DNA from: Bacteroidales bacterium | GTDB taxonomy: Bacteria; Bacteroidota; Bacteroidia; Bacteroidales; UBA10428 | DNA: 41,859 nucleotides | Direction of reading: 5' to 3' | Assembly (NCBI GenBank): GCA_016936215.1 | Contig: JAFGPL010000101.1 | Span: 1-41,859, forward strand | Shown: positions 19,001-37,020 of the stretch, one piece after another | How the letters are laid out: every line of letters begins with the position of its first letter | Position numbering within the stretch: position 1 is the first letter of the stretch | Position numbers and translations under genes: made by a program | Notes under the pieces: generated by a model | What the model was told of the DNA's origin: nothing | The model's input: the letters and a program-made list of their open reading frames with translations, nothing else | Databases searched by the model: none

Positions 19001-21589
19001 AACCATCCTGATGTAATTTCTCTTGAATCTGATAATGTTAAAACCTCACGGCAATGGCGTAGTTCTTTATACCCGGAGGACTGGAAACCGGGGTTTAAAG
19101 ACAGCGATGGAAGATTTTTACACGATTTCTCCTATGCAGGCTATCATTCAGGTGAAAAAAACCTGCCCGATATACAGGAAAATATTCTGAATGTTACCCT
19201 TCCACCTTATAATGCAGATAACACAGGTGTTGAAGATGTTACATCAGTAATTCAGAAAGCCATTGAAGATGCCGGGGCTTCCGGGGGCGGGGTAGTGTAC
19301 CTGCCCGAGGGAACATACAGGATAGTTGTACCTGATACTTCCGATGCAGCTTTATTAATTACAGGTGACAGCATTATTCTTCGCGGGGATGGCCCTGAGA
19401 AGACTTTTATTTTTCACGATCAGGATTCCATGCGGTTTAAAAGCATTATAAAATTTGGTTCTGAAGATGCTAACTGGTTTGAACCTAAAGGTTTTTCAGC
19501 CGCGTTAACCACCGATTTGCTTGAACCTTCACGTATTATACCTGTTGATTCGGTTTCCGGCTTCAAAACCGGCGATATGGTGGTAATAGCTTCGCAGCCT
19601 ACTGATGGTTTTATCGAAGACCATTTAATGACCGGGTATTGGACTGCCGGTGCTATAAAAGGAGTGGCATTTTTACGAAGAATAGATTCAGTTGACACTG
19701 AAAACAACCTGTTGTTTATTGATGCCCCAACCCGATATTTTCTTAAGACACGTGATCATTCCGCAGTATATCACGCAGGAAACCATATTTCTGAATGTGC
19801 TGTTGAAAATCTTTCAGTCGGCAACCGGCAAAATTCCAAATCAGGATGGGAGGAAGAGTCCTATTCTATAGATAGCACGGGCGCCTACGATGCCCACTTC
19901 TCTCAGGTCATTACATTCAGAAATGCTGTAAACTGCTGGCTGAAGAATGTTTCTACCTATAAACCTGCAACAAATACCGAAGATTTTCATGTTTTATCAA
20001 ATTGCCTGTTGCTCGATCAAAGTCGTTTCATTACAGTTGATTCATGCAACTTTCAGAAACCGCAATACGAAGGTGGAGGTGGAAACGGATACATGTATAC
20101 CCTGCAATCAAATGATTGCCTGATTAAGAACAGTATTGCCAATCATGCAAGGCATAATTACGATTTTAAATATCCTTACAGCAATGGCAATGTAATTCAC
20201 AACTGCCGTGCAGAGAATTCCAAATATGCCAGCGATTTTCATATGTACCTGAGTATGGCAAACCTGTTTGATGCCTGCACGGTGAGCGGGGATTACCTCG
20301 AATCTGCTTTCAGGCCCTGGGGTAGCAGCGCAATACACGGATACTCTTCAACACAATCTGTTTTTTATAACATAAAGGGAGAAGCTTATCATCCTGCCAG
20401 GGATTATATTGTTGAATCGCGCCAGTTTGGGAATGGATATATCATTGGTACTTCAGGAGAGGCAAACAAAATAGTGCTTGACCCGGCCGAAGGGATAATC
20501 AATGGATATTATTACAACACCATGCCCCGCGATTTTGCAGAAGGTGTAGGGAATGGTGACTTTATTGAACCAATATCTCTTTACCTCGACCAGCTTGAAA
20601 GAAGGATGAAGGATACTGTTGCCGGCAGGACATTTGAGGTAAATATTGTTATTAAGGATAAATCCTCAGATGATGTAATACCGGGATGCGAGGTAAAAAT
20701 CTACAATGAAACCATTATTTCGAACGAATCGGGCATAGCAGGCTTTTCCAATGTGCTTGAGGTTTTTGTAGCTGAGGCAAATCACACACTATACATCCCC
20801 ATGGAAAAGAAGCAAGTTGTGATTATCAGCGATACAACACTTACTTTCTATCTTGAAAAAAAAACTTTTAGTGTGGATGTGAAGCTATATAATGAGAATA
20901 CGAACATGATACTGGCCAGTTGCAATTTTACACTCAATGACATTACAAAAACCACCAATTCGGAGGGTCTGGTTTCATTTACTGTAACTGCTGGTATTTC
21001 TGACTATTCAGTACAAAAGAATTACTTCCAGTCGAGTGTCGGCACCTTTGAAATCATTTCAGATACTACCGTCAATTTTTACCTTCGGCAGATTCTTGCA
21101 GATGTAAAATTCAGGTTATATGAAGATGGCGTACCCTTAAACAATGCACTCGTAAAAGCCAAGGCAGATTCCATCATTACCAATTCTTTAGGACTGGCTT
21201 TGTTCAGAATGGTTACCGTGCCTTCCTGGTTTGAATATTCAATAACAAAAGAGGGCTATATTGCTATTGAAGATAATTTTTACCTGGTAACTGATACGAC
21301 CATAGAACTGAATATCCAAAAAGTGAATTTGACTAACAGGAATTTGGAAAATCCGGAAGCTATTCAGATATGGCCGAATCCGGCTGAAAGGCAACTTTAT
21401 TGCCATTTTCCGAAAGAGTTTACCGGCAGGTTTCTAAATATCGTTAATTTGCTAGGGAATGTAATTGGTGAATATAAAATTGATACTGAGGAGATGGTGA
21501 TAAATGTTGAAAACCTTGAATCAGGTCTGTACTTTATAAATACAGGTGCAAATGAAGAAAAGTATAATATGTATTTTATTAAAAAATAA
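16055..21589 (+). CDS. Multicatalytic enzyme: GH44 - CBM35-like - GH26 - right-handed beta-helix domain - three small beta-domains - T9SS sorting domain
   Basis: GH44-like SPYIFGKNN...RENGGNNATKYNWRRKLSSH and YWSMDNEPEIWSGTHDD; CBM35-like EAEAENGVFSGVTVSN...YSGTGYVTGF; GH26 VLWRPLHEAGGGWFWWG and IAMTENGPIPD; NADNTGVEDVTSVIQKAIEDAGASGGGVVYLPEGTYRI (beta-helix start); IWPNPAERQLYCHF...GLYFIN (T9SS). Real start may be ATG at 16070 (MKKLFTIILFSSFICVSAQ). Confidence 0.85.
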   Translation: MILRIMKKLFTIILFSSFICVSAQQEVTINIDINQQARPISPYIFGKNNCLSDRPGSPLTSAQWQKLRDLGIQMFRENGGNNATKYNWRRKLSSHPNWYNNVYAHDWDYAAQSLQSNIPHAQGMWAFQLAGKAAKTMAYNFNDYSYNGSQWWEGVEQNVAGGGQVNTAGGTEALVEGNPSLYLESWDADSTTGILDRWFGTGGIGLDTSRIMYWSMDNEPEIWSGTHDDIWPVQPDAESFMQMYFATAKKARAKFPGIKLVGPVPANEWQWYNWNGNKVSYNGKQYVWLEYFILRIAEEQQATGTRLLDVLDIHFYPGEKNPADIVQLHRVFFDETYAYPGANGVRRSGTGSWDVTLNKEYIFKRCNNWLEQYIGPGHGVTLSVSETGIEDTQTDVTASWYASNIGEFMKQGVEIFTPWTWKTGMNEVLHLFSRYSNKYFIDAISSNELYVSAYTTVNSTKDSMTVFLVNRHLTESRNIDLNITGFPVKNGLYNTFQIYDLPASETFVSHTSNALKKNKLLIENNKPQIQLPPLSVTALVLKRADNIKTQFGYQITEAEAENGVFSGVTVSNAVAGYSGTGYVTGFDNSSDKVTVEVYIPEKNLFKLMIRYRSADGQKYQNLLINNQPVASIRFLESETFTYTDAGSYILEKGINNISILSKWGYTDIDKFEIYPAAQNIFDLSPGLVDTAASETANDVYSFLLNQFGERIISGQTHDYYSEVTIIAGKSPMIRVADFQHFTEGYPYLWYNGGHTFGKDDDGSVNELINWYNSTGKKGIISYQWHWHSPFGGSAGTNTFYTSLTTFDVSKAVIPGTPEYDSIIRDIDDIAAELKKFQDAGIPVLWRPLHEAGGGWFWWGAKGPEPCKELYNILFERLKNHHHLHNLIWVWSTPEEEWYPGNDKVDIIGYDSYPGEYNYSNQKYAFDELFRITQGKKLIAMTENGPIPDPTACLTEGAPWLYFMSWSDLVTQQNSTAHIQEVFNHPDVISLESDNVKTSRQWRSSLYPEDWKPGFKDSDGRFLHDFSYAGYHSGEKNLPDIQENILNVTLPPYNADNTGVEDVTSVIQKAIEDAGASGGGVVYLPEGTYRIVVPDTSDAALLITGDSIILRGDGPEKTFIFHDQDSMRFKSIIKFGSEDANWFEPKGFSAALTTDLLEPSRIIPVDSVSGFKTGDMVVIASQPTDGFIEDHLMTGYWTAGAIKGVAFLRRIDSVDTENNLLFIDAPTRYFLKTRDHSAVYHAGNHISECAVENLSVGNRQNSKSGWEEESYSIDSTGAYDAHFSQVITFRNAVNCWLKNVSTYKPATNTEDFHVLSNCLLLDQSRFITVDSCNFQKPQYEGGGGNGYMYTLQSNDCLIKNSIANHARHNYDFKYPYSNGNVIHNCRAENSKYASDFHMYLSMANLFDACTVSGDYLESAFRPWGSSAIHGYSSTQSVFYNIKGEAYHPARDYIVESRQFGNGYIIGTSGEANKIVLDPAEGIINGYYYNTMPRDFAEGVGNGDFIEPISLYLDQLERRMKDTVAGRTFEVNIVIKDKSSDDVIPGCEVKIYNETIISNESGIAGFSNVLEVFVAEANHTLYIPMEKKQVVIISDTTLTFYLEKKTFSVDVKLYNENTNMILASCNFTLNDITKTTNSEGLVSFTVTAGISDYSVQKNYFQSSVGTFEIISDTTVNFYLRQILADVKFRLYEDGVPLNNALVKAKADSIITNSLGLALFRMVTVPSWFEYSITKEGYIAIEDNFYLVTDTTIELNIQKVNLTNRNLENPEAIQIWPNPAERQLYCHFPKEFTGRFLNIVNLLGNVIGEYKIDTEEMVINVENLESGLYFINTGANEEKYNMYFIKK

Positions 21590-21718
21590 ATGTTATGTAT
21601 TTAACAATTAATGTATTTACATTTTACACATCAGCAGGTTAAATAGATTTAAACTAATATTTTTTTTTATATGTTTGCAAAGATTATTAACGAGAGACCG
21701 AAGAAATATTCTAACAAA

Positions 21719-24016
21719 ATGACAAATAATAAACTACTGCTGATCATTGCAGGAATAGTGATTTTTTTCATAAGCTGCAATGATGAATTTGAACAGGATA
21801 AATACAAGCGGCCCGATTGGCTGGCCGGGAAACTGTATACACAGATCAAGGACAAGACAACGCTCTCTTTGTTTGCAAGATGTATTGAGCGGACTGGTTA
21901 TGATACCATCATTAATACGTCTGGTTCGTATACGGTCTTTGCACCCGACGACAATGCTTTTTCACTTTATTTTCAAAGCCATCCGCAATATACATCGGTT
22001 GAAGATATTCCCATTGAAGAACTCAGCAGGATTGTGAAATATCACATTATTCAGAATCCCTGGAGCAGGGAACAGCTTAGATCGCTTGATGTTTACGGGT
22101 GGATTGATACCCTGGATATCAATAACGATCAGCCCGCGGGATTCAAACGGGAAACCTTGTTGCGGGAGACTGACCAGAAATATGGAGTCGCAACTGATGC
22201 TGACAATAACTTTAAAATCGTTGATACCTTATTATCTCCATGGTACAGAAGAAACTATACAGATTCAAGAAAGTATGCCCCTGTGTTTTACCAGGACTAC
22301 CTAGATATATATGATTTAACTTCAGACGATTATGAATTCTATTTCGGAAGGCCTTTTGATAGTCCTGCCGATATGTACTATATGGGAGGGAAGATAACTG
22401 AAGGCGATATTTTTGCAGAAAATGGATTTATTCATGTAATAGACCGTGTAATAGAACCGCTTCAAAATGCAAGTCAGATACTTAGTACGGAGGTGGGTGA
22501 AAACTCATACTCCAAATTTTTTGACCTTGTTAATTATTTCCCCGAATTTACATACAATGAGGAAAGAACTTTTGATCAGCCAGGGGCAGAGTTAGGCTAC
22601 GAGGTTGACTCTCTTTTTGACATTTCCTATCCCGATCTCGCGTTTGATATTATAAATGAAAAGACCAAAGCCCCCAAAGGCACCATCGGGTTACCCTCTA
22701 ATGTATCCATTCGCTATCATCATGGTTTGGTTGCTCCCACCAATGAAGCGCTTGATGCTTTTGAAAATGAATATTTCGTCGGGGGGTTTCAATGGGGGAG
22801 CATCCGCAATGCACCTCGCCATTTGAAAAGAATGATTGTAAACACTTATATGTCAACGTATCCGATTTATCCGAAAGATTTTGCCGACGGTTTTATGAAC
22901 GGGGAATCAGACATTGTTTCTCTTGACCAGTCCTCGGTTGTTCAACAACAATATGGCAGCAATTGTACATTCATCGGGGTAGATCAGGCTATTGTCCCGC
23001 GTGCCTTCAGTAGCGTTACCGGACCGGTTTATCTTAACAGGGGATATTCTTATGCCATGTATGCCATCGAACGTGCAGGATTGATCTCGACTTTAAAAAA
23101 AGCTGACCGGGATTATCTACTGTTTGTGGAATCGGATGTGAATTGCCAGGATGACTCCTCTTTATTATATAATATATACACGGAGATTTTTTCTGGATTT
23201 TTGATTTCAGGTCAGTCTGCACAAAGGGTTAATTTTTCGACAAACGATTTAAGGATACTCCTGATGAACCATATTGGCACTGCCATTCCAAAGAAAATTG
23301 CCCGTAAAGAGTTTATTCCAAACCTTGCTGGTAATTTTATCATTTTTAACAACGAAACAGGCGAAGTATCCGGTAATGTTCAAACAACAGTAGGATATAA
23401 AGGTAGTAAACCTGTGGTTGTGATTCCCAATCAGATAAGTACAAATGCCGATAACGGATTCACTTACGATATCTCTAACTGGTTTGGATTTTCAGCTTCT
23501 TCTATTTTGATCAAATTACAGACTTCTTTCCCGGCATTTTTTTCATTGCTTCAACAGGCCGGATTGGCGACGAGTTCAAAAATTACATTTATTTCAGACA
23601 ACGAGAATTATACCGTTTTTGCCCCTAGTGCGGCTGCACTTGCCGCTTATAACACAGATACACTTACTACAGATGAGTTAAAAAAATTCCTGATGATGCA
23701 TTTTGTGCAGGGAACATTGATGTTTACAGATGGTAATCTGTCTTCCGGCTATTACGAGACTACCAGAATTGATGAAAAGTCCACTTCATTTGCCACCATA
23801 TTCACAAAAGTGTATATTGATCCCGGTATTGATCTCATTACCTTCCCTGACAAATCCAGCAATCCATACCTTGAAGTAAGTGAATCTGCTGTTACCAATA
23901 TTATTACCGGACGTACTTTAAGCGATGAGCAGTTTAATTTTCCGAATATAGTATCTAATGGCGTGATACACGAGATTGATAAAGTTTTACTATTCGATAT
24001 GCTGGATACCCAATAA
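21719..24016 (+). CDS. FAS1 (fasciclin) repeat lipoprotein, PUL-associated
   Basis: Lipobox IVIFFISCNDEFEQD from ATG at 21719; FAS1 motifs LSLFARCIERTGYDTIINTSGSYTVFAPDDNAF...YHII and ITFISDNENYTVFAPSAAALAAY...GVIHEIDKVL. Confidence 0.85.
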   Translation: MTNNKLLLIIAGIVIFFISCNDEFEQDKYKRPDWLAGKLYTQIKDKTTLSLFARCIERTGYDTIINTSGSYTVFAPDDNAFSLYFQSHPQYTSVEDIPIEELSRIVKYHIIQNPWSREQLRSLDVYGWIDTLDINNDQPAGFKRETLLRETDQKYGVATDADNNFKIVDTLLSPWYRRNYTDSRKYAPVFYQDYLDIYDLTSDDYEFYFGRPFDSPADMYYMGGKITEGDIFAENGFIHVIDRVIEPLQNASQILSTEVGENSYSKFFDLVNYFPEFTYNEERTFDQPGAELGYEVDSLFDISYPDLAFDIINEKTKAPKGTIGLPSNVSIRYHHGLVAPTNEALDAFENEYFVGGFQWGSIRNAPRHLKRMIVNTYMSTYPIYPKDFADGFMNGESDIVSLDQSSVVQQQYGSNCTFIGVDQAIVPRAFSSVTGPVYLNRGYSYAMYAIERAGLISTLKKADRDYLLFVESDVNCQDDSSLLYNIYTEIFSGFLISGQSAQRVNFSTNDLRILLMNHIGTAIPKKIARKEFIPNLAGNFIIFNNETGEVSGNVQTTVGYKGSKPVVVIPNQISTNADNGFTYDISNWFGFSASSILIKLQTSFPAFFSLLQQAGLATSSKITFISDNENYTVFAPSAAALAAYNTDTLTTDELKKFLMMHFVQGTLMFTDGNLSSGYYETTRIDEKSTSFATIFTKVYIDPGIDLITFPDKSSNPYLEVSESAVTNIITGRTLSDEQFNFPNIVSNGVIHEIDKVLLFDMLDTQ

Positions 24017-24058
24017 ACACTGAACCGAAACATATTTTAACAAAGATTTTTGTATAAA

Positions 24059-27000
24059 ATGAAAAACATAAGAAAACCAATTATACTTCTGCTGGCCCTA
24101 ATAAGCTGTCTGACTGCATACTCACAAAAGTCAATTCTGCGCGGCAGGGTATTTGATAAAAGTGACAATGCTACCATTGTAGGGGCCAATATCATTGAAT
24201 ACGATAAAGACAACCGTATTATCAACGGTACGATTACCGATGTGAATGGCGACTTTGTGCTTGAAATGCAGAATCCGGCAAATATTATAAAAGTCAGTCT
24301 TATTGGTTACGAAACAAAAGAGGTAAAACCCGATTTTTCTAAATCTATGGTGATCGTACTCGAAGTATCTGCCCAGGAGCTTGAGGAGGTTGTAGTTACC
24401 GCTCAGGCCAGGACTTTCAGGGGGCTTACCAATATTGACGACCGTGACAACGCTTCAGCCAGGGTCAAGGTTGACATGATGGATATGAAAGAATCCGGTG
24501 TTCTTACCGCCTCAGATGCACTGCAGGGGCGGGTAAGCGGCCTCGACATTATCGCTTCGTCAGGTGACCCGGGTTCGGGCTCGTCCTTGGTCATCAGGGG
24601 GTTAAGTTCAATCGGCAATAACAAACCGCTTATTGTTATTGACGGAATCCAGCAGGCAAGGATACCATCCGACTTTAATTTAAGTTCGGCAAATGCTGAA
24701 GATATTGGTAACCTGTTAAACATTGCCGTTCAGGACATCAAATCAATAGAAATTCTTAAAGATGCTGCATCCACCGCAGTATACGGTTCTGCAGGTGCCG
24801 ATGGGGTATTGCTTATCGAGACACAAAAAGGAAAACTGGGGAAAGTACAGTTCGACTATACCTACAAAAACAGTATCAATATTCAACCCCCCGCCATACC
24901 CATGCTTAACGGGGATGAGTATATAATGCTGCAGCTTGAAGAGTGGCACAACAGCCAGGGTATTTTTGAACTCCCCCCTGAGATCGCTTATGATAAAGAC
25001 TATGTTAATTTTTATAACTATTCAGCCAATACCGACTGGCTTGGGGCCATTACCAAAAATGGTGTCACCCACGACCACTATTTCAGCATTCAGGGAGGAG
25101 GCGAAAAAACACGTTACTTTACTTCAATAAGTTATATTGATGAAGGGGGGACTACCATTAACACCCGGTCAAAGCGTTTCTCAACCCGTGTGAACCTTGA
25201 TTATTATCTCTCCCGAAAGATGGTATTCTCTATACAGTTCAATTATACCTACAATAATACAAAAGGCAATTTTACTTTCAACAAGGGTGCCGATAATGAA
25301 ATGACTGTAAGGAAAATGGCCTATATCAAAGCCCCCAATATGAGCATATGGGAGCATGATGCATACGGAAACCTTACGGGGGAGTATTTTACACCTATCA
25401 ACAGTTACCAGGGAGGCGGAGATTCTTATTTTAATCCGGTAGCTGTGGCGGTGCTGGGCAAAGACGACCGGCTGGGCAATAATCTGAACAATGCCTTTAC
25501 CTTACGATACAATATTTTAGACTGGCTGGTGTTTAGGGAAACCATCTCATTCCAGTTTGACGGCAGCAAGTCCAACAATTTTCTTCCATACAATGCTCTG
25601 GGCTCAGACTGGTTGGCATGGACCGTGAACAAGGCTGAAGAAAGTAACAATATTTACCGGCAGATAAATACTGAAACACAACTTGCATTTGATTCGCCTT
25701 TTAAAAGCAAAACACATTTTCTCTCAGGGGCATTGACCTGGATTACCCAGCAATCTGGATATGAATGGATGAACATTCAAAGCAACAAAACACCGAGTAC
25801 CAATATCCAGGATCCTTCAATTGATGCCCAGATAAACTGGATTGGCGATGGATCTGGTGAACAAAGGTTACTTGGGGCACTTGCCAACCTGAATTATAAA
25901 TTTCATGACCGATACATGGTTCAGACGATTTTAAGGGCCGATGCACACTCCTCATTTGGTTCAAATAACCGCTGGGGCTTATTTAAAGGTGTTTCCGCCG
26001 GATGGCGTTTCTCCGACGAACCATTGCTAAAGGAGATGAGTTTTATGGGGGAAAGTATGCTGCGCGTAAGCTGGGGGGTATCTGGCCGGCAGCCGAGCGA
26101 TCCCTATGCCAGGTTTGCACGTTATGGGGGAAGCACCTCAGGCAACTATATTACTAATACTGCAATTGTACCGAGCCAAACACAGTTGAATAATTTAAAA
26201 TGGGAAAATATTTCGTCGACCGATATTGGCATAGAATTAAATATGTTCAATGACAGATTATACATTGAAGGTGATGTTTATCAAAAAATTACTACTGACC
26301 TACTTTTTAACAAATACGATATCCCCTGGTCGTCCGGATATGAACAATTCTTGTTTCTTAACGGTGGTAAGCTTGAAAACAAAGGATGGGAACTGATGAC
26401 GGAATACCGGTTTTTACGAAAAAATGATTTAAGATGGTCGGTTAATTTTAATATTTCTCAGAATATTAATTCATTTACAGAACTTCCTGAAAATTTTAAT
26501 CCTGAGCAATCTACTTCAATCGGAAACAAGGAGTATCCCATCCGGGTACTTGAAGGTGAACCCATCGGATCTTTTTTCGGGTTCAGGTACCAGGGGGTCT
26601 ATCCCACCGATGCCGATGCTGTGGCCAGGGATGCACAGGGGAATGTGATTTATGATAATGAAGGCATTCCGATACCAATGACTTATCTGAGTTCTTATGT
26701 TTTCAAAGGAGGTGACCCAATATATGAAGACGTTAATCATGACGGTAAAATTGACCTGAACGACGTGGTTTACCTTGGTGACGCCAATCCTCAGTACATA
26801 GGCGGGTTTGGTACTGCAGTGAGGTACAGAAATTTTGACCTTACCTGTGGTTTCCAGTACAGGCTTGGTTATGATATTATTAATGGTGTGGCCATGGATA
26901 CAGAGGGCATGAATGACAGGAACAATCAAAGTAAAGCTGTATTAAGCAGATGGCGTGTTCAGGGACAGGATGAACCGGGCATGCTGCCCCGTGCATACCT

Positions 27001-27292
27001 GAACAATCCTGCAAATAACCTGGGTTCGGACAGGTATGTTGAAAGGGGTGATTTTCTCAGGTTGCTGAATATCATGGTGAGTTACCGCGCTGGCAAAAAG
27101 GTTTGTGATATGTTAAATCTCAGAACTTTAACATTTGCTGCCAGTGCCAGAAAAATCCTGACTTTTACCAATTATTCCGGTCAGGACCCCGAAGTGCCTC
27201 AGAATGCAAGCAATCCTTTCTGGATAGGAGTTGATAAGGCCAATACACCACCTCCCAGGGTAATCACATTTACTGTATCTGTAGGTTTTTAA
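24059..27292 (+). CDS. SusC/RagA-family TonB-dependent outer-membrane transporter (pair 1)
   Basis: CarboxypepD_reg-like N-terminus LRGRVFDKSDNATIVGANI; LEEVVVTAQ; plug ALQGRVSGLDIIASSGDPGSGSSLVIRGLSSIGNNKPLIVIDGIQ; IEILKDAASTAVYGSAGADGVLLIETQKGK. Track start at 24050 is TTG; ATG is at 24059. Confidence 0.95.
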   Translation: MKNIRKPIILLLALISCLTAYSQKSILRGRVFDKSDNATIVGANIIEYDKDNRIINGTITDVNGDFVLEMQNPANIIKVSLIGYETKEVKPDFSKSMVIVLEVSAQELEEVVVTAQARTFRGLTNIDDRDNASARVKVDMMDMKESGVLTASDALQGRVSGLDIIASSGDPGSGSSLVIRGLSSIGNNKPLIVIDGIQQARIPSDFNLSSANAEDIGNLLNIAVQDIKSIEILKDAASTAVYGSAGADGVLLIETQKGKLGKVQFDYTYKNSINIQPPAIPMLNGDEYIMLQLEEWHNSQGIFELPPEIAYDKDYVNFYNYSANTDWLGAITKNGVTHDHYFSIQGGGEKTRYFTSISYIDEGGTTINTRSKRFSTRVNLDYYLSRKMVFSIQFNYTYNNTKGNFTFNKGADNEMTVRKMAYIKAPNMSIWEHDAYGNLTGEYFTPINSYQGGGDSYFNPVAVAVLGKDDRLGNNLNNAFTLRYNILDWLVFRETISFQFDGSKSNNFLPYNALGSDWLAWTVNKAEESNNIYRQINTETQLAFDSPFKSKTHFLSGALTWITQQSGYEWMNIQSNKTPSTNIQDPSIDAQINWIGDGSGEQRLLGALANLNYKFHDRYMVQTILRADAHSSFGSNNRWGLFKGVSAGWRFSDEPLLKEMSFMGESMLRVSWGVSGRQPSDPYARFARYGGSTSGNYITNTAIVPSQTQLNNLKWENISSTDIGIELNMFNDRLYIEGDVYQKITTDLLFNKYDIPWSSGYEQFLFLNGGKLENKGWELMTEYRFLRKNDLRWSVNFNISQNINSFTELPENFNPEQSTSIGNKEYPIRVLEGEPIGSFFGFRYQGVYPTDADAVARDAQGNVIYDNEGIPIPMTYLSSYVFKGGDPIYEDVNHDGKIDLNDVVYLGDANPQYIGGFGTAVRYRNFDLTCGFQYRLGYDIINGVAMDTEGMNDRNNQSKAVLSRWRVQGQDEPGMLPRAYLNNPANNLGSDRYVERGDFLRLLNIMVSYRAGKKVCDMLNLRTLTFAASARKILTFTNYSGQDPEVPQNASNPFWIGVDKANTPPPRVITFTVSVGF

Positions 27293-27312
27293 CATATTGT
27301 AAATTAATTAAA

Positions 27313-28779
27313 ATGAAAATAAGAATCCTTCTTTTAGCAATCTTAACAGCGCTGCAGTTTTCATGTAGCGACTGGATGGAGCTTATACCTCCGACAGGAC
27401 TTATCAGGGAAGAATACTGGCAGACCAAGGAAGATGTAAAGGCTGCCGTAATGGGGGCCTATGATTCATTTGCACAGCTTGACGGTTTACTGTTTAAATT
27501 CGGTGAGATGAGGGCAGACCTCGTGCAGGCCGATAATAACCTATCACTCGATGACCAGAAGGTAATGGAAGGAAATATCTACCCGGACAACTATTTGTGT
27601 AACTGGTTCGATTTTTACAAGGTTATAAATTATTGCAACGAAATATTGTTGTATGCACCAGGGGTTAAGGAAAAAGACAACACCTTTACCGATTATCAGT
27701 TGCAGGGTTATCTTTCTGAGGCTTATTTTCTCAGAAGCCTTACCTATTTTTACCTTGTAAGGATTTTCGGTGACGTGCCATTTGCAACAAAACCAACAGA
27801 AAGTGACGATGCAGATATTTACCTGCCAAAAACAAATAGTAATGAAATTTTAGAACAGATATTAAGCGATCTGAAATATGCACGCAGTTTTGCAACTGTT
27901 GACGGTTATCCCACTCTAAGGGAGAACAAGGGAAGGGCGACCAAGGCGGCTTTCGATGCTTTGCTTGCCGATATCTCATTGTGGACATTCGACTACGAGG
28001 CATGTATTACGTATGTCCAAAATATTGAATTATCAAAAAAATATGAACTGATGCCCGGTGACAGATGGTTCGAACTTTTTTATCCCGGCAACTCCCTTGA
28101 GGGCATTTTTGAATTGCAATATGACAATGCACTGAGCCAAAACAACCGGCTTTACGGACTTACCCAAAGGTACAGCTATAATTTTGATCCCAGCGAAAAA
28201 GCTCTTTACCTATTCGGGAAAGAATATGTCCGGGAGCTTAAAAGGGGTGAAGATGTCTCGATTAAAAAATATGCCGATGACGATTTTATTATCTGGAAAT
28301 ATGTCGGAAGAAGTGCTGATGGTTATACTGCCCGTACCGGAACAGACCAGAATAGCTGCAACTGGATAATTTACCGCCTTGCAGATGTTCTGCTAATGAA
28401 AGCTGAAGCATTATCCCAGATCGGCAGGTATACCGAAGCCTTGCAGATACTTAACGATATAAGGGATAGAGCTGATGTTCCCCTTTTGTTGAGCCTGGCG
28501 AATTCGGCCATGGCTTTTGAAGATGCTATACTTGAAGAAAGGGCACGTGAACTGGCCTTTGAAGGTAAACGATGGTTTGACCTGCTGAGAATGGGCAGGC
28601 GGAATAACTACAGCCGTAAAAGCAAACTGATTGAGGTTATCGTTGCCAATGTTCCGTCAACACAAAAACGTGTTCTGGCTGCCAAATTAACCAATCCGTT
28701 GGGCTGGTACCTGCCGATATACGAATCTGAAATTGAACGAAATAAAAACCTGGTGCAGAATCCTTATTATAACTTTTAA
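27313..28779 (+). CDS. SusD/RagB-family surface glycan-binding lipoprotein (pair 1)
   Basis: Lipobox ALQFSCSDW; QGYLSEAYFLRSLTYFYLVRIFGDVPFATKPT; IYRLADVLLMKAEAL; ILEERARELAFEGKRWFDLLRMGR. Confidence 0.95.
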   Translation: MKIRILLLAILTALQFSCSDWMELIPPTGLIREEYWQTKEDVKAAVMGAYDSFAQLDGLLFKFGEMRADLVQADNNLSLDDQKVMEGNIYPDNYLCNWFDFYKVINYCNEILLYAPGVKEKDNTFTDYQLQGYLSEAYFLRSLTYFYLVRIFGDVPFATKPTESDDADIYLPKTNSNEILEQILSDLKYARSFATVDGYPTLRENKGRATKAAFDALLADISLWTFDYEACITYVQNIELSKKYELMPGDRWFELFYPGNSLEGIFELQYDNALSQNNRLYGLTQRYSYNFDPSEKALYLFGKEYVRELKRGEDVSIKKYADDDFIIWKYVGRSADGYTARTGTDQNSCNWIIYRLADVLLMKAEALSQIGRYTEALQILNDIRDRADVPLLLSLANSAMAFEDAILEERARELAFEGKRWFDLLRMGRRNNYSRKSKLIEVIVANVPSTQKRVLAAKLTNPLGWYLPIYESEIERNKNLVQNPYYNF

Positions 28780-28782
28780 CAA

Positions 28783-30351
28783 ATGAAAGATCTGATAAAA
28801 ATATACGGTTTACTGGTTTTATCCTGCCTCTTCTCATCTTCCTGTAAGGAACCCGTTGTTGAGGCCGGTTTTGAAGATCAGGAAAAATTAACAATCTACG
28901 ATTACATTACAGAAAACAAAGATAATTACTCCAGTTTTCTCAGCATCCTTGAAAAAGGGGGTATTGATAAGACACTAACGGCATATAATCCCAATGGAAT
29001 TGGGTACACCCTGTTTCTTCCGACCAACAGCGCTGTAGACGAGTTTATTGCCCAAAACCCTCAATATAACACCTTACAGGATTTGCTTGCAGATGAAACC
29101 TATGTGAGGGTCCTATGCAGATATCATATTGTCAACATGGGTATTGAGTCTAATAGTTTCCCATTTGGAGCATTACCTGAATACACGCTTTCTGAAGACT
29201 TTCTTACAGTGGGTTTTGTTATTGAACAGGATACCTCTTATTATAAAATCAACAATGAAGCACCTGTTATTCAGCCGAATATTGAACTCTCCAACGGATA
29301 TATACATGTTATAAGTAATATGCTTAAGCCTGTGGTTTATACAACGTATAACTGGCTTGAACTTAATCCCGGATATTCGATTTTCAAGGCTGCTGTTGAT
29401 ACAACCGGTTTAAAAGAGGTATTCGACCTGAACATGAAGGAGGTTGAAGACATCGCTTTCAGGCCCTTTACGCTGCTTGTTGAGCACGACTCGGTCTTTA
29501 ACAAGAGAGGTATTGCCTCCATTCAAGACCTTATCAACCTCGTAAGCCCAGACAGGACAGATTATGCCAGTAACCTTAACCCGTTATATGGTTTTGTATC
29601 TTACCATCAACTTACCGAAACCATGTTTATGGATGATTTTGTTGACAATAATACCAACTACACTACCTATTCCGCTGTACCTTTGAACATTGACGGATTG
29701 GGCCTTGACATTGCTATCAATAAGGGAAAAGAGATTTTCGATACAATTATCAATACTCCCGATACCACCATTATTAATTATATAAGTTTTGATTACGATG
29801 CAAGCAATGTGCTTACACAGAGCGGTGTAATTCATTTTATTGACAGGGTCATGTTTCAGAAAACCCCTTCACGTGCTAACCAGGTTTTTGAATTCTACAA
29901 TGAGCCCCTCTTTAATGAATATCGTCTCGAACCGGGAGAATACCTCGTAGAAGACCCAACTGCATTACAGGTTGTTAAATGGACCGGCCCTGACCTGATA
30001 TTTGTTGAGACCGGCAATAATGAAAGCCCTGCCTGGAGCGCTGATTACCTTTATTTGAACGGTGATTTTACCATCTCATATACAATACCCAAAATTGTTC
30101 AGGGTAATTATACCGTGCTTCTGTATGCAGATGCATTTTATTATTTGAATGCGCTTATCGAGGTATATATAGACGGGAAAAAGGTTGGAGGATTGGTTGA
30201 CCTGACAACCGGAGGCTCATCATCAAATCCTTTTTTTGAATTCGAGATCGGTTCGGTAAACTTTTTAAAATATGAAGCACATACCGTTGAAATAAGGTCC
30301 CGCATCCCGGGTATTTTCATTTGGGATTATATACGTTTTGAACCATTGTAA
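28783..30351 (+). CDS. FAS1 domain lipoprotein with C-terminal beta-sandwich (CBM-like) domain
   Basis: Lipobox LFSSSCKEP; FSSFLSILEKGGIDKTLTAYNPNGIGYTLFLPTNSAVDEF (FAS1); HFIDRVM; C-terminal GEYLVEDPTALQVVKW...ALIEVYIDGKKVGG...HTVEIRSRIPGIFIWDYIRFEPL. Confidence 0.8.
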   Translation: MKDLIKIYGLLVLSCLFSSSCKEPVVEAGFEDQEKLTIYDYITENKDNYSSFLSILEKGGIDKTLTAYNPNGIGYTLFLPTNSAVDEFIAQNPQYNTLQDLLADETYVRVLCRYHIVNMGIESNSFPFGALPEYTLSEDFLTVGFVIEQDTSYYKINNEAPVIQPNIELSNGYIHVISNMLKPVVYTTYNWLELNPGYSIFKAAVDTTGLKEVFDLNMKEVEDIAFRPFTLLVEHDSVFNKRGIASIQDLINLVSPDRTDYASNLNPLYGFVSYHQLTETMFMDDFVDNNTNYTTYSAVPLNIDGLGLDIAINKGKEIFDTIINTPDTTIINYISFDYDASNVLTQSGVIHFIDRVMFQKTPSRANQVFEFYNEPLFNEYRLEPGEYLVEDPTALQVVKWTGPDLIFVETGNNESPAWSADYLYLNGDFTISYTIPKIVQGNYTVLLYADAFYYLNALIEVYIDGKKVGGLVDLTTGGSSSNPFFEFEIGSVNFLKYEAHTVEIRSRIPGIFIWDYIRFEPL

Positions 30352-30363
30352 AAAGCAAATAAC

Positions 30364-31908
30364 ATGAATTACAAAATTATAATTACAGGTTTGATTGTAT
30401 TCTTCGTTCTGTTTGGCTGTAAAAACGAATGGGACGAACATTACAACACAGTGCCGGAAACAATTGATATGAATGTATGGCAGGCGATTCAGAACGACAA
30501 CAATCTTTCATTGTTTGTCCAGTATGTTAAAGATTTGCAATTTGATACACTTTTTCTTACTGACCAGCCATACACAATTTTTGTCCCCGACAATGAGGCA
30601 TTTACAGGATTTCTTGATACGGCTGTTGTTTCGGCCAGGTTGCTGAATTATCATATTTCGGCTCATTTTATCCAGTCAAACCATATCAACGGTAAAAGAC
30701 GTATTCAGACTTTGGGTGAAAAATTTGCGCTCTTTGAGAATGACGGGCTGCAAGCAACCCTGGATGAAATCAATTTTAAATACGAGAGTCCTTTATATGT
30801 GAATGGCAAATATTATGTATTGGAAAAAGTAGCGTTGCCCAAACCAAATCTATATGAGTATTTTGAAGAAAGCAACCCGATATTGAAAGATTTTATTGAC
30901 AGTTACGATTCAACCATTATTGATAAGGAATTGAGCAGGCCGCTTGGATTTGACGAATTTGGCAATACAATATACGATACGGTTGCAATAGAGTTTAACC
31001 TTTTCGAAGCTATGGTATTTCCTGTAAGCGAGGAATTAAGGTACAATACAGCCACATTTGTTTTTCCGAAGGAAGAAGACTATAACAATGGTTTAACAGC
31101 CATGGCACAATCGCTGGGGCCTAATTTTCAGGACTACAAAGATATTCCGCTTGAGTGGCAGAATGATATTCTTATTCCATACCTGCTCGAATATGGAATA
31201 TTTGACAATATGCTCGAAGAAAGCGCTTTCCTGCCAAGGCCTGGCAGGGGTGATACCATCAGGTTGAAAAATATCCTTGGGGATAGCATTGATATTGAGT
31301 ACCAACCGGTAGAAAAGGCTTTGTGCAGCAACGGGTATGCTTATAATTATGCGAACTTTGTCGTGCCCGATACCTTATATAACAGTCCGTTAAGAATGGA
31401 AGGTGAATATCTTTTAAGGGATGTGGGTATCAATAAATATGCCTGGAATGAAGATGTGGATGTTTCAAGTACTGTTTCTTTTCAACCCTTGCAGGAGTTG
31501 ATATTGGGTACTGCTTCCAACGATTCAATCCTGAGAGTGGCATTTACAAAAAATTATACCGGCTCATTTACAGTTGAGTTCAATATTGACTATGTCTTTC
31601 CGCGTAAATATCTGATGGTGGTCCGCACGCATATGTACATGGGTGGAAAATACAATATTTACATGAACGATCAGTTGGTTAAAACAATAGATTACTACGA
31701 TTATACCCTGAACCGTGGGGCTTACTGGAGTGTCACAGGCAAAAGATATTTTCCCGAAGGCGCTTATAACAGGTTTGATTGCTGGGTGGAGAACCTTACC
31801 GAGTACGGTGTTACAAAAGTAAAATTTGAATATATAGGATATAGTAACAGTACCCTGATAAACAGCGGTTTAGCTATTGATTATATTGACCTGATACCCT
31901 ACAACTAA
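30364..31908 (+). CDS. FAS1 domain lipoprotein with C-terminal beta-sandwich (CBM-like) domain
   Basis: Lipobox FFVLFGCKNEWDE; LSLFVQYVKDLQFDTLFLTDQPYTIFVPDNEAF (FAS1); C-terminal GEYLLRDVGINKY...KYNIYMNDQLVKTIDY...VTKVKFEYIGYSNSTLINSGLAIDYIDLIPYN. Confidence 0.8.
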   Translation: MNYKIIITGLIVFFVLFGCKNEWDEHYNTVPETIDMNVWQAIQNDNNLSLFVQYVKDLQFDTLFLTDQPYTIFVPDNEAFTGFLDTAVVSARLLNYHISAHFIQSNHINGKRRIQTLGEKFALFENDGLQATLDEINFKYESPLYVNGKYYVLEKVALPKPNLYEYFEESNPILKDFIDSYDSTIIDKELSRPLGFDEFGNTIYDTVAIEFNLFEAMVFPVSEELRYNTATFVFPKEEDYNNGLTAMAQSLGPNFQDYKDIPLEWQNDILIPYLLEYGIFDNMLEESAFLPRPGRGDTIRLKNILGDSIDIEYQPVEKALCSNGYAYNYANFVVPDTLYNSPLRMEGEYLLRDVGINKYAWNEDVDVSSTVSFQPLQELILGTASNDSILRVAFTKNYTGSFTVEFNIDYVFPRKYLMVVRTHMYMGGKYNIYMNDQLVKTIDYYDYTLNRGAYWSVTGKRYFPEGAYNRFDCWVENLTEYGVTKVKFEYIGYSNSTLINSGLAIDYIDLIPYN

Positions 31909-31935
31909 TAATATTTAATCTGATAATAACCAGAA

Positions 31936-34900
31936 ATGAGAAACTATCTGAATATAAAAAACCGAAGCTTCAAGACAACCGGTATAATGTCAAAAAAAAT
32001 TATAAAACTTGCTTTGTTTGTTTGCTTGTTGATGACGGCAGTTTATACTGCTGATGCACAGGATTCACTAATGATAAAAGGTGTTGTTTTATCCGAGACA
32101 GGAAAACCACTCGCCAATGTTACTGTAAGCATTGAAGGTTCATCAGAGCTTCCTGTGTTTACAAACGAAACAGGCGAATTTACCTTAAAATCTGCAACAG
32201 GTGATGACTGGATTACTGTTTCGCCAACCGGAGGTTTTAAAACCAAAAGGGTATTCTTAAACCAGCGAACAGAACTAAAGATTTACCTTACACCCTTGAA
32301 CCTTGCAGCGGGCAATGATAAACTCTCGATACTTTCGCAACAGATTGATAAGAAGAATTTTATTTCATCTTTTACAGAAGTTAATACTTCAGGCATACAC
32401 CTGTCACCTGCGGTATCCATCGAGCAGTTTATGCAGGGTAAAACGGCAGGCACAATGGTTGTTAACAGGTCTGGGATGCCTTCAAGCGGTGCTGTTACAA
32501 GTATCAGGGGGGTTCATTCTATCAATGCTTCGAGCAGTCCGTTATATGTCGTAGATGGTATCCCCGTTACACCTTTCAATACATTCGGGTCTAATCTTCA
32601 GGGATATGACTATAATCCGCTTGTTGCCATTAATCCTTTTGATGTATCTTCACTTACCGTTGTTAAAGACCCTTTAATTGCTTCTACCTATGGTTCAAAA
32701 GGTTCTAACGGATTGGTGCTTATCGAAACACTCGATCCCAGTGTTACCGAAACTACTATTGAACTTGACCTTCGGAGCGGACTTTCATTATCCCCCGAAA
32801 GGCTTATCCCCCAGCTTGATGCAGGCCAGCATAAAACACTGATGAATGAAATGCTTTATTCCTCGGGTATGATGGAAGAAGAAATCCTATACAGGTATCC
32901 TTCACTTTTCTTTACACCCGAAGATGACGGCTATATTGACTACCAGCATAATACTGACTGGCAGCAATTGATTTTCAGAAATGCATCTTTCAACCATATC
33001 AATTTAAATGTTAAAGGCGGTGATGAGATTGCCAGGTATGGTCTTTCTTTTGGTTACCTCAATAACAAGGGTATTATTAAGAACACCGGTTACCAGGGAT
33101 ATAACCTGAGGTTTGTGAGCCGTCTGAATATTTTCAGGTGGCTGAGGATGAATGCTGGCGTTTCACTGCATTATAATACTGCACAGTTAAAAGAAGCTGC
33201 TACAGTGAAAGAAACAAGCCCAATCAGGACAGCTTTGGGAAAATCACCCCTGCTCAATCCCTATCAGTATGATGTTGATGGTAACCTTACATCGCTTATT
33301 GCCGAAGTGGATGATATAGGAGTGAGTAATCCGCTTGCTGTTAACGACAACTACGAGGCAAAAAATAACAACGTGGGTTTTGTGGCTATGGCAAATGTCG
33401 AAGCTTCACTGAACAAAAACCTCACCTTGAACAGCAAATTCAGTCTTACTTATGGTATGCTGAAAGAGCAGATTTTCATGCCCAACCATGGTATGGAGCA
33501 CTATTATGAAGATGAAGCAATTAATGTTGCAAAAGGTACCAACAATGACCTGAAATCAATATACAGCAACACTTTTCTGAGGTTTGAAAAAAATTACGGG
33601 CCATTTCATCATGTTTCATCCAATACAGGGATAAATGTTCAGACCAACCGGTTTGAACTCGACTGGGGTTTAACAAAAAATGCCCACCAAAATGACCAGT
33701 ACCGCAACTTACAGGATGGTCAGAATAACCTCAGGGAAATTGGGGGACAAAACAGGAGTTGGAACTGGATGTCGGTCTATGAAAATGTTTTCTATTCATA
33801 TAAAGACAAATACCTTGCGTCTGCAAGTATTTCAATGGATGGTTCATCAAGGGTGGGTAAAAATGCTGACAATACGCTCAAACTGGCATCCTATCCCTTT
33901 GGATTGTTCTATTCCGCCGGAATAGCCTGGAGGATTTCCAATGAACCGTTCCTGAAAAATGTTTCCTGGCTTGAAGAACTCAAACTTAGGGTTACAACGG
34001 GGAAAACAGGCAATGATGATATTGGTGAATCTACAGCAACCAACTATTACCAGGCAGTTAAGTTTCGTGAAACCGTGGGCCTCTATCCTGCTGTTTTGCC
34101 AAATGGAAATCTCACCTATGAAACCACCCAACAGGTTAATGCCGGACTTGACTTATCACTTTGGGGAAACAGGGTTACCGCGGGCTTAGATTATTTCACT
34201 TCCAATACAAAAAACCTGCTGATATATACCCCGGTGGAAGCATACCTGGGATACAACCTGCGTGCAGAGAATGCAGGCCAGTTAAAGAACAACGGTATCG
34301 AAGCCAGCCTGTTCCTAAGGGTATTTGACATTCAGTCATTCAAATGGGATGTTATGGCCAGCTTTACCACTTTCAGCAATGAAATTACCGAAATGAAAGG
34401 CAACAAACTGGTGACTGAAATTGAGGGGGCTGAACTGGTGAATGCTGTCGGTTCTCCTGTTAACAGCTTTTATGGATATATTTTTAAAGGGGTTTTTGCC
34501 ACGCAGGAAGATGCCAATGCAGCAAATCTTGTCAACGACCGTGATATGCCTTTCAGGGCCGGGGATGCAATATACGAAGACATATCAGGGCCGGCAGGGG
34601 TTCCAGATGGGATTATCAATGATTTTGACAAAACCTCTATCGGATCGCCGATTCCCGATTATTTTGGCGGACTTGTAAATACATTTTCATATAAAAGATG
34701 GACTTTGAGCGCTGCCCTGCAATTTTCTTTCGGCAACGAGATATTCAATTATGTAAGATATAAAAATGAAAGCATGACCGGTCTGGAGAATCAGAGCCGT
34801 GTTGTATTGAACAGATGGCAGTATGATGGACAGGTAACGAACATTCCACGGGCCCTTTGGGACGATGCACAAGGCAATACAGCATTTTCAACCCGTTGGA

Positions 34901-35142
34901 TAGAAGATGGTTCTTACCTCAGGGTTAAGAATATTTCCCTGAGTTACAGAATCCCGGAAAAGTTTCTTGTGTTCAGAAACGCCGAATTTTATGTTTCGGC
35001 AAATAACCTGTTTACTTTTACCAATTATCTGGGTTACGATCCTGAGTTTGCCTATTCTCAAATACAGATATATCAGGGTATTGATTACGGGCAATGTCCG
35101 CAGACAAGACAATTTATTGCAGGTATAAAAATCGGATTATAA
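31936..35142 (+). CDS. SusC/RagA-family TonB-dependent transporter (pair 2), atypical N-terminus
   Basis: MIKGVVLSETGKPLANVTVSIEGS (CarboxypepD_reg-like); MQGKTAGTMVVNRSGMPSSGAVTSIRGVHSINASSSPLYVVDGIP (plug); C-term SYLRVKNISLSYRIPEKFL...FYVSANNLFTFTNYLGYDPEF. ATG at 31987 is an alternative start. Confidence 0.92.
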   Translation: MRNYLNIKNRSFKTTGIMSKKIIKLALFVCLLMTAVYTADAQDSLMIKGVVLSETGKPLANVTVSIEGSSELPVFTNETGEFTLKSATGDDWITVSPTGGFKTKRVFLNQRTELKIYLTPLNLAAGNDKLSILSQQIDKKNFISSFTEVNTSGIHLSPAVSIEQFMQGKTAGTMVVNRSGMPSSGAVTSIRGVHSINASSSPLYVVDGIPVTPFNTFGSNLQGYDYNPLVAINPFDVSSLTVVKDPLIASTYGSKGSNGLVLIETLDPSVTETTIELDLRSGLSLSPERLIPQLDAGQHKTLMNEMLYSSGMMEEEILYRYPSLFFTPEDDGYIDYQHNTDWQQLIFRNASFNHINLNVKGGDEIARYGLSFGYLNNKGIIKNTGYQGYNLRFVSRLNIFRWLRMNAGVSLHYNTAQLKEAATVKETSPIRTALGKSPLLNPYQYDVDGNLTSLIAEVDDIGVSNPLAVNDNYEAKNNNVGFVAMANVEASLNKNLTLNSKFSLTYGMLKEQIFMPNHGMEHYYEDEAINVAKGTNNDLKSIYSNTFLRFEKNYGPFHHVSSNTGINVQTNRFELDWGLTKNAHQNDQYRNLQDGQNNLREIGGQNRSWNWMSVYENVFYSYKDKYLASASISMDGSSRVGKNADNTLKLASYPFGLFYSAGIAWRISNEPFLKNVSWLEELKLRVTTGKTGNDDIGESTATNYYQAVKFRETVGLYPAVLPNGNLTYETTQQVNAGLDLSLWGNRVTAGLDYFTSNTKNLLIYTPVEAYLGYNLRAENAGQLKNNGIEASLFLRVFDIQSFKWDVMASFTTFSNEITEMKGNKLVTEIEGAELVNAVGSPVNSFYGYIFKGVFATQEDANAANLVNDRDMPFRAGDAIYEDISGPAGVPDGIINDFDKTSIGSPIPDYFGGLVNTFSYKRWTLSAALQFSFGNEIFNYVRYKNESMTGLENQSRVVLNRWQYDGQVTNIPRALWDDAQGNTAFSTRWIEDGSYLRVKNISLSYRIPEKFLVFRNAEFYVSANNLFTFTNYLGYDPEFAYSQIQIYQGIDYGQCPQTRQFIAGIKIGL

Positions 35143-35154
35143 ATATTTTTAGCT

Positions 35155-37020
35155 ATGATAAAGTTACACACTCCTATAAAGCATTTGTTCAGGTTTACCG
35201 GGATATTGTTTTTTGCATGGTTTATTGTTTCATGCGAAGACTTTTTTGACCCGCAGCAGGACCTTAGCATCACCGAAGACAAATTGTATGACGACTGGTA
35301 CGAATACCGCGCAGTTGCCATGGGAATGTATGGCCTGCAGCAACAATTGGTTGAACAGTTGCTTATTCTTGGTGAACTGCGGGCAGATCTTCTCACCATA
35401 ACACCAAATGCCGATGCGGATATGGTGGAAATATACAATTTCAATGTTTCAAAAGAGAACAAATACGCATCACCAACCAATTTTTTCAAATTAATTGCTG
35501 CCTGCAACAATTTTCTCAGGATACTTGAAACCAACCATCCGGAGGTTCTCGATCCTGAAGTACCTGTTACCAATTACGACAGGTTATATGGTGAGGCGCT
35601 TTGCATGAGGGCCTGGGCATATTTTAATGCAGTAAGGATTTACGGTAAGGTTCCGTACATCCACGAATCGCTCGTTACAATTGAGGAAATTGAAGAATAC
35701 ATTAACTCCCCCGGTGAGTATATTGATGATGTTTATATAAATTTTTCAAAAGACGGATATTACAATGATACGATTTATAATCAGCCTGTTACGCTTGAAA
35801 AGAAATACTTTGATTTACCTTTGATGATTGATGTGTTTACAAATCAACTTGAAAAAGAAATGAAAGCTGTTGGGGTGAATCATTATATTAACAACAACGA
35901 TGACACCTGGGAGGTAACCATTTGGAATAATTGGGCAGCATCTGCGTTGCTGGGACAAATGTATTTAACACAGGGAAACCTGGCAAAAGCTTCTGCATAT
36001 TTCGGAAATGTCATTTTCAATAGTACTGAAAACAGAAGATATCAGCTTGACAACAGTTTTTCGTATGGCAGTTGGGGAACTATCTTTACCGGAATAGATA
36101 ACCGGGAACATATCTATACAATATGGTTTAACAAGGCAAATTTTCAGCAAAACAGGTTGCAGGAATTTTTTGAACCGTTTGCCCCGGCTAAGTATATGCT
36201 TAAGCCTACACACAGGGCAATTAATATTTGGGAAACTGTTTGGCGATATCAGGTTTTAGATGAAAACTTATCTAATCCGGGTCTTACAGAAATGTCTTTT
36301 GCAGGAGTACCAAGTGATTTTTACAGGGGATTTGGATCATCCTATCTTTACATAAAAAATGGAGGAATATTACCTTCATCTGATTATGAAAATATGCTCA
36401 CCCTGAGGGCAGAAGGTGACGATCGTAATTCAAGGATCATAATGGAAGGTGCTGATACCATTGTTATTAAGTACTCAATCGGCCAAAACCAATATGATCA
36501 TGACGCCAATTACATTATTTATCGTGCAGCCTCTATCCATTTGTATATGGCAGAAATCTATACCTATTATGCATGGGAGCAAAACGGCATTATTCGCACC
36601 AATACCACTGTTGCCCTTGGCTTGGTAAATGACGGGAGCAATTATGATATTTCAGCCAACAGGGAACAACGTGGCGTTAGGGGTAGAGTAGGATTAGGAA
36701 ATGATGCCGATGCTGTAAAAATCAATAATATCATTTATAAGCATGACCCTTATACAAATGAAATTACCGGTTATACAGATTATAGTGGAAATTTTCCCGC
36801 AAAGCAAAAATATCTTGAAGAACAAATACTTGACGAGCGTGCCCGCGAACTTGCTTATGAAGGTGAACGATTTTACGACCTGATGCGGGTTGCCAAAAGA
36901 AGGAACGACCCCTCATTCCTTGCAAATATTGTGTCTTCGAAATACCCTGCCGGCAAACGTGAACAGATATACAACTACCTGCTCGATGAGAATAACTGGT
37001 ATATAAAGTATTTTGAATAA
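35155..37020 (+). CDS. SusD/RagB-family lipoprotein (pair 2, long form of 621 aa)
   Basis: Lipobox WFIVSCEDFFDPQ; YGEALCMRAWAYFNAVRIYGKVPYI; ASIHLYMAEIYTYYAWEQN; ILDERARELAYEGERFYDLMRVAKRRNDPSFLA. Confidence 0.93.
   Translation: MIKLHTPIKHLFRFTGILFFAWFIVSCEDFFDPQQDLSITEDKLYDDWYEYRAVAMGMYGLQQQLVEQLLILGELRADLLTITPNADADMVEIYNFNVSKENKYASPTNFFKLIAACNNFLRILETNHPEVLDPEVPVTNYDRLYGEALCMRAWAYFNAVRIYGKVPYIHESLVTIEEIEEYINSPGEYIDDVYINFSKDGYYNDTIYNQPVTLEKKYFDLPLMIDVFTNQLEKEMKAVGVNHYINNNDDTWEVTIWNNWAASALLGQMYLTQGNLAKASAYFGNVIFNSTENRRYQLDNSFSYGSWGTIFTGIDNREHIYTIWFNKANFQQNRLQEFFEPFAPAKYMLKPTHRAINIWETVWRYQVLDENLSNPGLTEMSFAGVPSDFYRGFGSSYLYIKNGGILPSSDYENMLTLRAEGDDRNSRIIMEGADTIVIKYSIGQNQYDHDANYIIYRAASIHLYMAEIYTYYAWEQNGIIRTNTTVALGLVNDGSNYDISANREQRGVRGRVGLGNDADAVKINNIIYKHDPYTNEITGYTDYSGNFPAKQKYLEEQILDERARELAYEGERFYDLMRVAKRRNDPSFLANIVSSKYPAGKREQIYNYLLDENNWYIKYFE

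Follow-up and report, generated by a model that had tools for sequence, protein, structure and literature searches.

The way in which Bacteroidota feed on the glycans of plants, algae and hosts is determined by their polysaccharide utilization loci (PULs). In canonical PULs such as the Sus locus of Bacteroides thetaiotaomicron and the levan PUL Bt1754-65, SusC and SusD are followed by surface lipoproteins, which are surface glycan-binding proteins (SGBPs) of the SusE/SusF type, and are accompanied by glycoside hydrolases (GH). Tandem SusCD PULs, such as the xylan Xus-type systems and the rhamnogalacturonan I (RG-I) PUL BT4164-BT4169 of B. thetaiotaomicron, carry a second SusCD pair that is separated from the first by lipoproteins. 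Here we describe a seven-gene cassette that resembles both layouts, found in a 41,859-nt stretch of DNA (the window) from contig JAFGPL010000101.1 of a Bacteroidales bacterium (assembly GCA_016936215.1). Its first SusC (SusC1) shares the N-terminal extension (NTE), TonB box and plug of canonical SusCs. In contrast to canonical PULs, the cassette has three lipoproteins based on FAS1 domains rather than SusE/F, a second SusCD pair without a TonB box, and a fixed seven-gene composition. We know of no FAS1 lipoprotein or missing TonB box reported for Xus-type systems. We propose that the products of these seven co-inherited genes form a single apparatus for glycan uptake at the outer membrane, in which an energised SusC1-SusD1 pair would work with a non-energised SusC2-SusD2 partner and with SGBPs built of FAS1 and jelly-roll domains; we give this proposal an even chance of being right.

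Searches of the window with Pfam and NCBIfam profiles identified seven tightly packed genes, all on the + strand, in the order FAS1 (FasA)–SusC1–SusD1–FAS1 (FasB)–FAS1 (FasC)–SusC2–SusD2 (Table 1). The intergenic gaps are 33, 20, 3, 12, 27 and 12 nt, and the order, shared orientation and close packing read from the letters alone in an earlier note on this DNA were confirmed. The longest open reading frame (ORF) of FasA spans 21671-24016, and its probable true start is the ATG at 21719, in agreement with that note; the longest SusC1 ORF runs from 24050, with a likely start at the ATG at 24059. All three FAS1 proteins exceed the PF02469 gathering score of 22 bits (FasA 103.8, FasB 85.6 and FasC 36.8 bits), the middle repeats of FasA giving weaker matches than the outer stretches. 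SusC1 belongs to the SusC/RagA family of TonB-linked outer membrane proteins (TIGR04056, 688 bits versus a cut-off of 368), as does SusC2 (623 bits, with CarboxypepD_reg and Plug domains found), which scores below the cut-off of the signature model TIGR04057. SusD1 and SusD2 both fall in the SusD/RagB family; the matches of SusD2 are weak yet above the curated cut-offs, and its orthologous position is occupied in all complete cassettes that we collected. Lipobox-type signal peptides were found in the three FAS1 proteins (in FasA, ISC followed by NDEFEQ) and in both SusDs.

The arrangement recurs within the genome and across the phylum. FAS1 matches in the genome lie on contigs C30, C125 and C164 (the window), with a contig-edge fragment on C255; nine of the ten FAS1 genes sit in three seven-gene cassettes, and C30 and C125 carry the order seen in the window. 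Identities among the three copies are 36-38% for SusC1, 32-35% for SusC2 and 22-30% for the FAS proteins, while SusC1 and SusC2 are about 26% identical to each other; to judge from these values, the copies are old and diverged. Across Bacteroidota we collected 89 distinct cassettes (80 + 9), with all seven genes visible in 45, always in the same order. Most of the 44 incomplete cassettes are truncated where the examined stretch ends. Sampling was seeded, and the 89 loci lack phylogenetic independence. Three seeding routes were used: the SusC1 plug, which was the only seed in the scan of named genomes, profiles of FasB and FasC, and the Pfam DUF5108 model; loci from the named-genome scan were then assigned by profiles made for each of the seven genes. 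Over 295 genomes of the class, the FasB and FasC profiles each ranked an identical set of 11 full-length loci above the background of generic FAS1 proteins, at E<1e-40 except for one FasC at 9e-22. Loci seeded with DUF5108 were complete cassettes in 17/17 examined, including L106, in which a spurious ORF overlapping SusD1 hid that gene during ORF calling. The conserved neighbourhood of FAS1 and SusCD genes across Bacteroidota, a check proposed in the earlier note, is therefore present on a large scale. Gaps are short throughout (medians 8-21 nt).

Cassettes occur in Flavobacteriales, Chitinophagales/Sphingobacteriales, Cytophagales, Marinilabiliales and Bacteroidales. The hosts include Flavobacterium alvei, Salegentibacter, Algibacter miyuki, Niabella aurantiaca, Thermoflavifilum, Chitinophaga sp. 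CB10, Pedobacter frigiditerrae, Belliella calami, Geofilum rhodophaeum, Prolixibacteraceae, Prevotella communis, many rumen Bacteroidaceae, and Paraprevotella clara, the genome of which contains seven copies. The cassette is uncommon and widely scattered, being found in about 7 of the 295 class genomes, once as a shortened variant. A shortened relative, FasA-SusC1-SusD1-FasB-SusC2-SusD2, was observed in genome G002 (L018:1-12349); its SusC2 has 919 aa and lacks both the NTE and the TonB box. One contig labelled Paenibacillus (L073) bears SusCD genes and is probably a misbinned metagenome contig.

Among 36 complete cassettes, pairwise distances correlated with a Mantel r of 0.87-0.94 for all 21 gene pairs, and 0/500 permutations reached the observed correlation, so the cassette is passed on as a whole; relatedness by itself adds to such correlations. 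Paralogous cassettes within one genome often track the cassette lineage rather than the host, and one copy of the genome studied here (copy Y) and a Geofilum cassette (L125) are mutual best matches for all seven genes, both adjoining a PF11790 (GH128-type) enzyme. Chance, or local shuffling of FAS1 genes, was ruled out as an origin of the arrangement by its recurrence in the genome and across the phylum and by this co-inheritance.

The second SusC departs from the first in one feature. In N-terminal alignments, SusC1 and unrelated SusCs have a box E-V-x-[VI] between NTE and plug, the position required of a functional TonB-dependent transporter, and this box is missing from SusC2. A position-specific scoring matrix (PSSM) of the TonB box, built from unrelated SusCs and used with a threshold of 8 bits, detected 27/29 control SusCs, 45/61 SusC1 and 1/49 SusC2; the median SusC2 score equals that of shuffled sequence, and the lone match falls inside the plug region. 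A motif fitted to the linker matched 78/79 SusC1 and 26/29 controls, the three missed controls being visibly boxes (LEETVVVGYG type). Its six matches among 78 SusC2 proteins all lie away from the box position, leaving none at it. The difference also holds within genomes: in the genome studied here, 28/28 other SusCs with the region covered have a TonB box versus 0/3 SusC2, and in P. clara the figures are 16/18 and 0/7. Two P. clara SusCs outside FAS1 cassettes, L197 (G379:C5:66250-68955) and L194 (G379:C65:28962-31574), also have no recognisable TonB box, and box-less SusCs may be a wider phenomenon. A box displaced within the SusC2 N-terminus was rejected, as PSSM scores over residues 60-230 are at background and the consensus holds no conserved alternative. 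Decay into a pseudogene was likewise rejected: wherever SusC2 is complete in a seven-gene cassette, its ORF is intact and encodes about 1050 aa, and the gene is co-inherited. Its nearest solved structures in the PDB are ordinary SusC/RagA proteins.

These data bear directly on the claim of the earlier note that the locus is a dual-transporter PUL, which is doubtful because SusC2 has no TonB box in any cassette. In the Bt1763 system, deleting the box or replacing it with alanine leaves the SusC non-functional, and the SusCD complex is dimeric (PMC7782687). SusC2 would accordingly not be energised in the usual way, as far as can be told from its sequence. We considered that the two pairs could be independent importers, handling size classes or branches of one polysaccharide, with SusC2 energised through an unconventional TonB contact and the FAS1 proteins acting as SGBPs. 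PULs with SusCD pairs in tandem are known, both SusCDs of the B. thetaiotaomicron RG-I PUL are treated as transporters in a review (PMC8002723), the SusC2 barrel and plug are well conserved among cassettes, and 28/78 SusC2 carry a clade-conserved motif, Y-x(3-6)-[LMVIF]-P, at the box position. This motif contains a proline, however, which occurs in 0/88 SusC1 boxes; the position is deleted in most Prevotellaceae SusC2s, and no motif there is common to all 78 SusC2s. Given also the phenotype of box mutants, and since independent importers would not need such strict co-inheritance, we regard this explanation as rather unlikely. We judge it unlikely, too, that SusC2-SusD2 is no partner of SusC1 and works instead as a receptor or sensor without energisation, or as a passive channel through which oligosaccharides pass or enzymes or lipoproteins are delivered. 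The missing box beside an intact plug and barrel would fit such a role, as would the further degenerate SusC2-like protein of L018, but the profile search detected no STN (signalling) domain in the window SusC2, plug conservation would not be expected of a passive pore, and SusC2 is tightly co-inherited with SusC1.

The FAS1 proteins may have a role in glycan capture. Across cassettes their N-termini are nearly universally of the lipobox type, and the cysteine is followed by acidic residues, a feature most marked in FasC (C-S-D-x-W-D-D-H-Y). The earlier note placed FAS1 proteins where classical PULs encode SusE/SusF; this holds for FasB and FasC, whose genes follow SusD1 as expected for SGBPs, and not for FasA, which lies upstream of SusC1. 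AlphaFold2 predicted a jelly-roll for the C-terminal third of FasB (predicted local distance difference test, pLDDT, 94.0; predicted template modelling score, pTM, 0.88), and Foldseek matched it to the PDB entries 7ehg (MiXBM; E 3e-7, TM by target 0.81), 2w1w (carbohydrate-binding module (CBM) family CBM35; E 3e-5) and 8j3x (CBM6). The FasC jelly-roll (pLDDT 75.5, pTM 0.75) matched the same group (MiXBM 7ehg and CBM35 2w1w/2w47). Both C-termini thus have a predicted CBM6/CBM35-like fold by comparison with solved structures, but window FasB and FasC gave no match to the CBM6/35 Pfam models (PF03422/PF16990) and are not assigned to these families proper. PF17133 (DUF5108) matched the FasB domain in 14/47 orthologues at E<0.1 and did not match window FasB. 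Sequence searches of the PDB with the FAS proteins returned generic FAS1 structures and no structure of the cassette family. Based on predicted fold and gene position, glycan binding probably resides in the C-terminal jelly-rolls of FasB and FasC. The accessory-binding class proposed in the earlier note is partly supported: FasB and FasC are lipoproteins at the SGBP position, and the likely binding part moves from FAS1 to the predicted CBM6/35-like domain. It is very improbable that the FAS1 lipoproteins serve mainly in adhesion or cell-cell contact and merely hitch-hike in a PUL. FAS1 proteins are classically adhesive, and adhesion was the reading given to a FAS1 gene with high transcript levels in a Urechidicola symbiont that has SusCD pairs (PMC10199937), but the fixed operon positions, the co-inheritance with SusCD in divergent lineages and the CBM-like C-terminal domains argue against it.

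In the apparatus that we propose, SusC1-SusD1 would be the TonB-energised importer, and FasB and FasC, and probably FasA, would be surface lipoproteins acting as SGBPs, with the jelly-rolls of FasB and FasC binding polysaccharide and the FAS1 repeats serving as a spacer or docking onto the SusCD complex or each other. SusC2-SusD2, conserved as a SusCD pair with its box lost, would probably import nothing by itself; co-inheritance and the missing box suggest that it most likely replaces the usual second identical SusCD copy, giving an asymmetric C1D1-C2D2 complex that may hold or present substrate and anchor the FAS lipoproteins. Several observations weigh against this proposal. Not all parts seem always needed, since a six-gene version without FasB occurs at five loci (L054, L063, L064, L072 and L093) and L055 and L067 retain only FasA-SusC1-SusD1(-FasB). 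The proline-containing SusC2 motif might be an unusual TonB contact. Finally, the FasC model is only moderately confident, and Eph receptors among its Foldseek matches show that CBM6/35-like folds also occur in non-carbohydrate proteins. A stronger version, in which an energised and a permanently non-energised SusCD form, throughout the phylum, an obligate asymmetric hetero-complex with the three FAS1 lipoproteins, is credible and falls somewhat short of an even chance; if true, a SusC would have taken on a new role as a subunit that transports nothing and is structural or holds substrate.

The window cassette lies directly downstream of GH5, GH5 and GH26/GH44 genes, forming with them one cluster of SusCD pairs and carbohydrate-active enzymes, as in a PUL. 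The 1844-aa enzyme preceding FasA has GH44-like, CBM35, GH26 and pectin-lyase-like segments and a type IX secretion system (T9SS) sorting tail. Because the three enzyme genes overlap one another and the last ends 81 nt before the longest FasA ORF, the operon probably spans about 12898-37020. These enzymes are of mannan/glucomannan type, which makes glucomannan, the glycan named in the earlier note, a plausible substrate for this copy; it does not extend to others, which adjoin pectin, rhamnogalacturonan or GH128-type enzymes. The C30 copy neighbours a rhamnogalacturonan lyase of polysaccharide lyase (PL) family PL11 and, judged from sequence, a hybrid two-component regulator, and C125 a PF11790 GH128-type enzyme; elsewhere we found PL11, PL1-like, GH28, GH2, GH115, GH43, GH97 and GH128-type enzymes. 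PL9 was sought as a marker beside cassettes, and the adjacent lyases were PL1-like instead. Since the enzymes differ between loci, the cassette would be a general uptake chassis reused with different enzyme sets rather than glucomannan-specific. Directly after the cassette, the window holds a C-terminal fragment of Rhs type that partly matches Ntox44 (37185-37835).

Table 1. Features of the seven-gene cassette and the upstream enzyme genes in the window
Feature	Coordinates	Strand	Description	Profile matches or other evidence
GH5 + CBM6 enzyme	12898..15060	+	4-nt overlap with next gene; probably same operon	PF00150 4e-56, PF03422
Second GH5 enzyme	15057..16058	+		PF00150 2e-56
1844-aa multidomain enzyme	16055..21589	+	directly upstream of FasA	PF12891, PF16990, PF02156 7e-61, PF18962
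FasA	21719..24016	+	first gene of cassette; large FAS1 lipoprotein, about four FAS1 repeats	PF02469 9e-30, two stretches
SusC1	24059..27292	+	TonB-dependent SusC: NTE (CarbopepD_reg_2), TonB box ELEEVVVTA, plug	PF13715, PF07715
SusD1	27313..28779	+	SusD-family lipoprotein	PF07980 4e-37, PF14322 7e-18
FasB	28783..30351	+	two FAS1 repeats and predicted C-terminal CBM6/35-like jelly-roll (DUF5108-related)	PF02469 4e-24, two stretches
FasB C-terminal jelly-roll domain	29854..30351	+	predicted	AlphaFold2 model, Foldseek PDB matches
FasC	30364..31908	+	FAS1 (one clear, one weak repeat) and predicted C-terminal jelly-roll; acidic lipoprotein N-terminus CKNEWDEHY	PF02469 5e-9
FasC C-terminal jelly-roll domain	31366..31908	+	predicted	AlphaFold2 model, Foldseek PDB matches
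SusC2	31936..35142	+	second SusC; NTE and plug kept; NLAAGNDKLSILSQQ where TonB box expected, none recognisable	
SusD2	35155..37020	+	divergent SusD-family lipoprotein	PF14322 2e-7, PF07980 4e-7

The cassette would break with the rule by which every SusC is an energised importer, would have FAS1-CBM lipoproteins in place of SusE/F, and would employ one fixed set of seven genes for several polysaccharides. It also points to a function for DUF5108 and opens to experiment the question of why two SusCD pairs are present in many PULs. In the literature, subscription journals not covered, we found only passing mentions of FAS1 or DUF5108 with SusCD, such as a "FAS1 domain protein" drawn in a figure of a Gramella cellulose/hemicellulose PUL (PMC4891872), and no description of the cassette or of the missing box. 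Eukaryotic FAS1 proteins (TGFBI, periostin) share the tandem FAS1 repeats and are the best PDB sequence matches of the cassette FAS proteins; the latter, in contrast, are bacterial lipoproteins in PUL operons with predicted C-terminal jelly-rolls, and adhesion of the collagen or integrin type is unsupported. Another layout, SusC-SusD-(FAS1 fused to CBM96 and a cadherin-like domain)-small lipoprotein-NagB-like-GH20(-SSF), with domains tested on L099 and L083 only, was observed in Flavobacteria, Sphingobacterium, Marinoscillum and Gramella and looks like an amino-sugar PUL. In these loci (L065, L078, L083, L086 and L099), too, SusD is directly followed by a lipoprotein that combines FAS1 with a CBM, but they have a single SusCD with a normal TonB box, one FAS protein, and CBM96 rather than a CBM6/35-like domain.

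Also related to the cassette are the DUF5108 and FAS1-DUF5108 proteins (PF17133). FasB proteins from Bacteroides and Prevotella cassettes match this model; that of the window has diverged too far to match, and we assign the fold to CBM6/35-like jelly-rolls. A DUF5108 protein is listed within BT4164-69 (PMC10434189), and the B. thetaiotaomicron RG-I PUL has two SusCDs and the SGBP BT4167 (PMC8002723). This PUL is probably a member of the cassette family. The gene order in related Bacteroides cassettes suggests that BT4169 is FasA, BT4168 SusC1, BT4167 SusD1, BT4166 FasB, BT4165 FasC, BT4164 SusC2 and BT4163 SusD2, an assignment that differs from the SusCD pairing in the review (PMC8002723). The literature on this PUL calls both pairs transporters and mentions neither FAS1 nor a missing box; if the PUL is indeed a member, a tractable model of the cassette is at hand.

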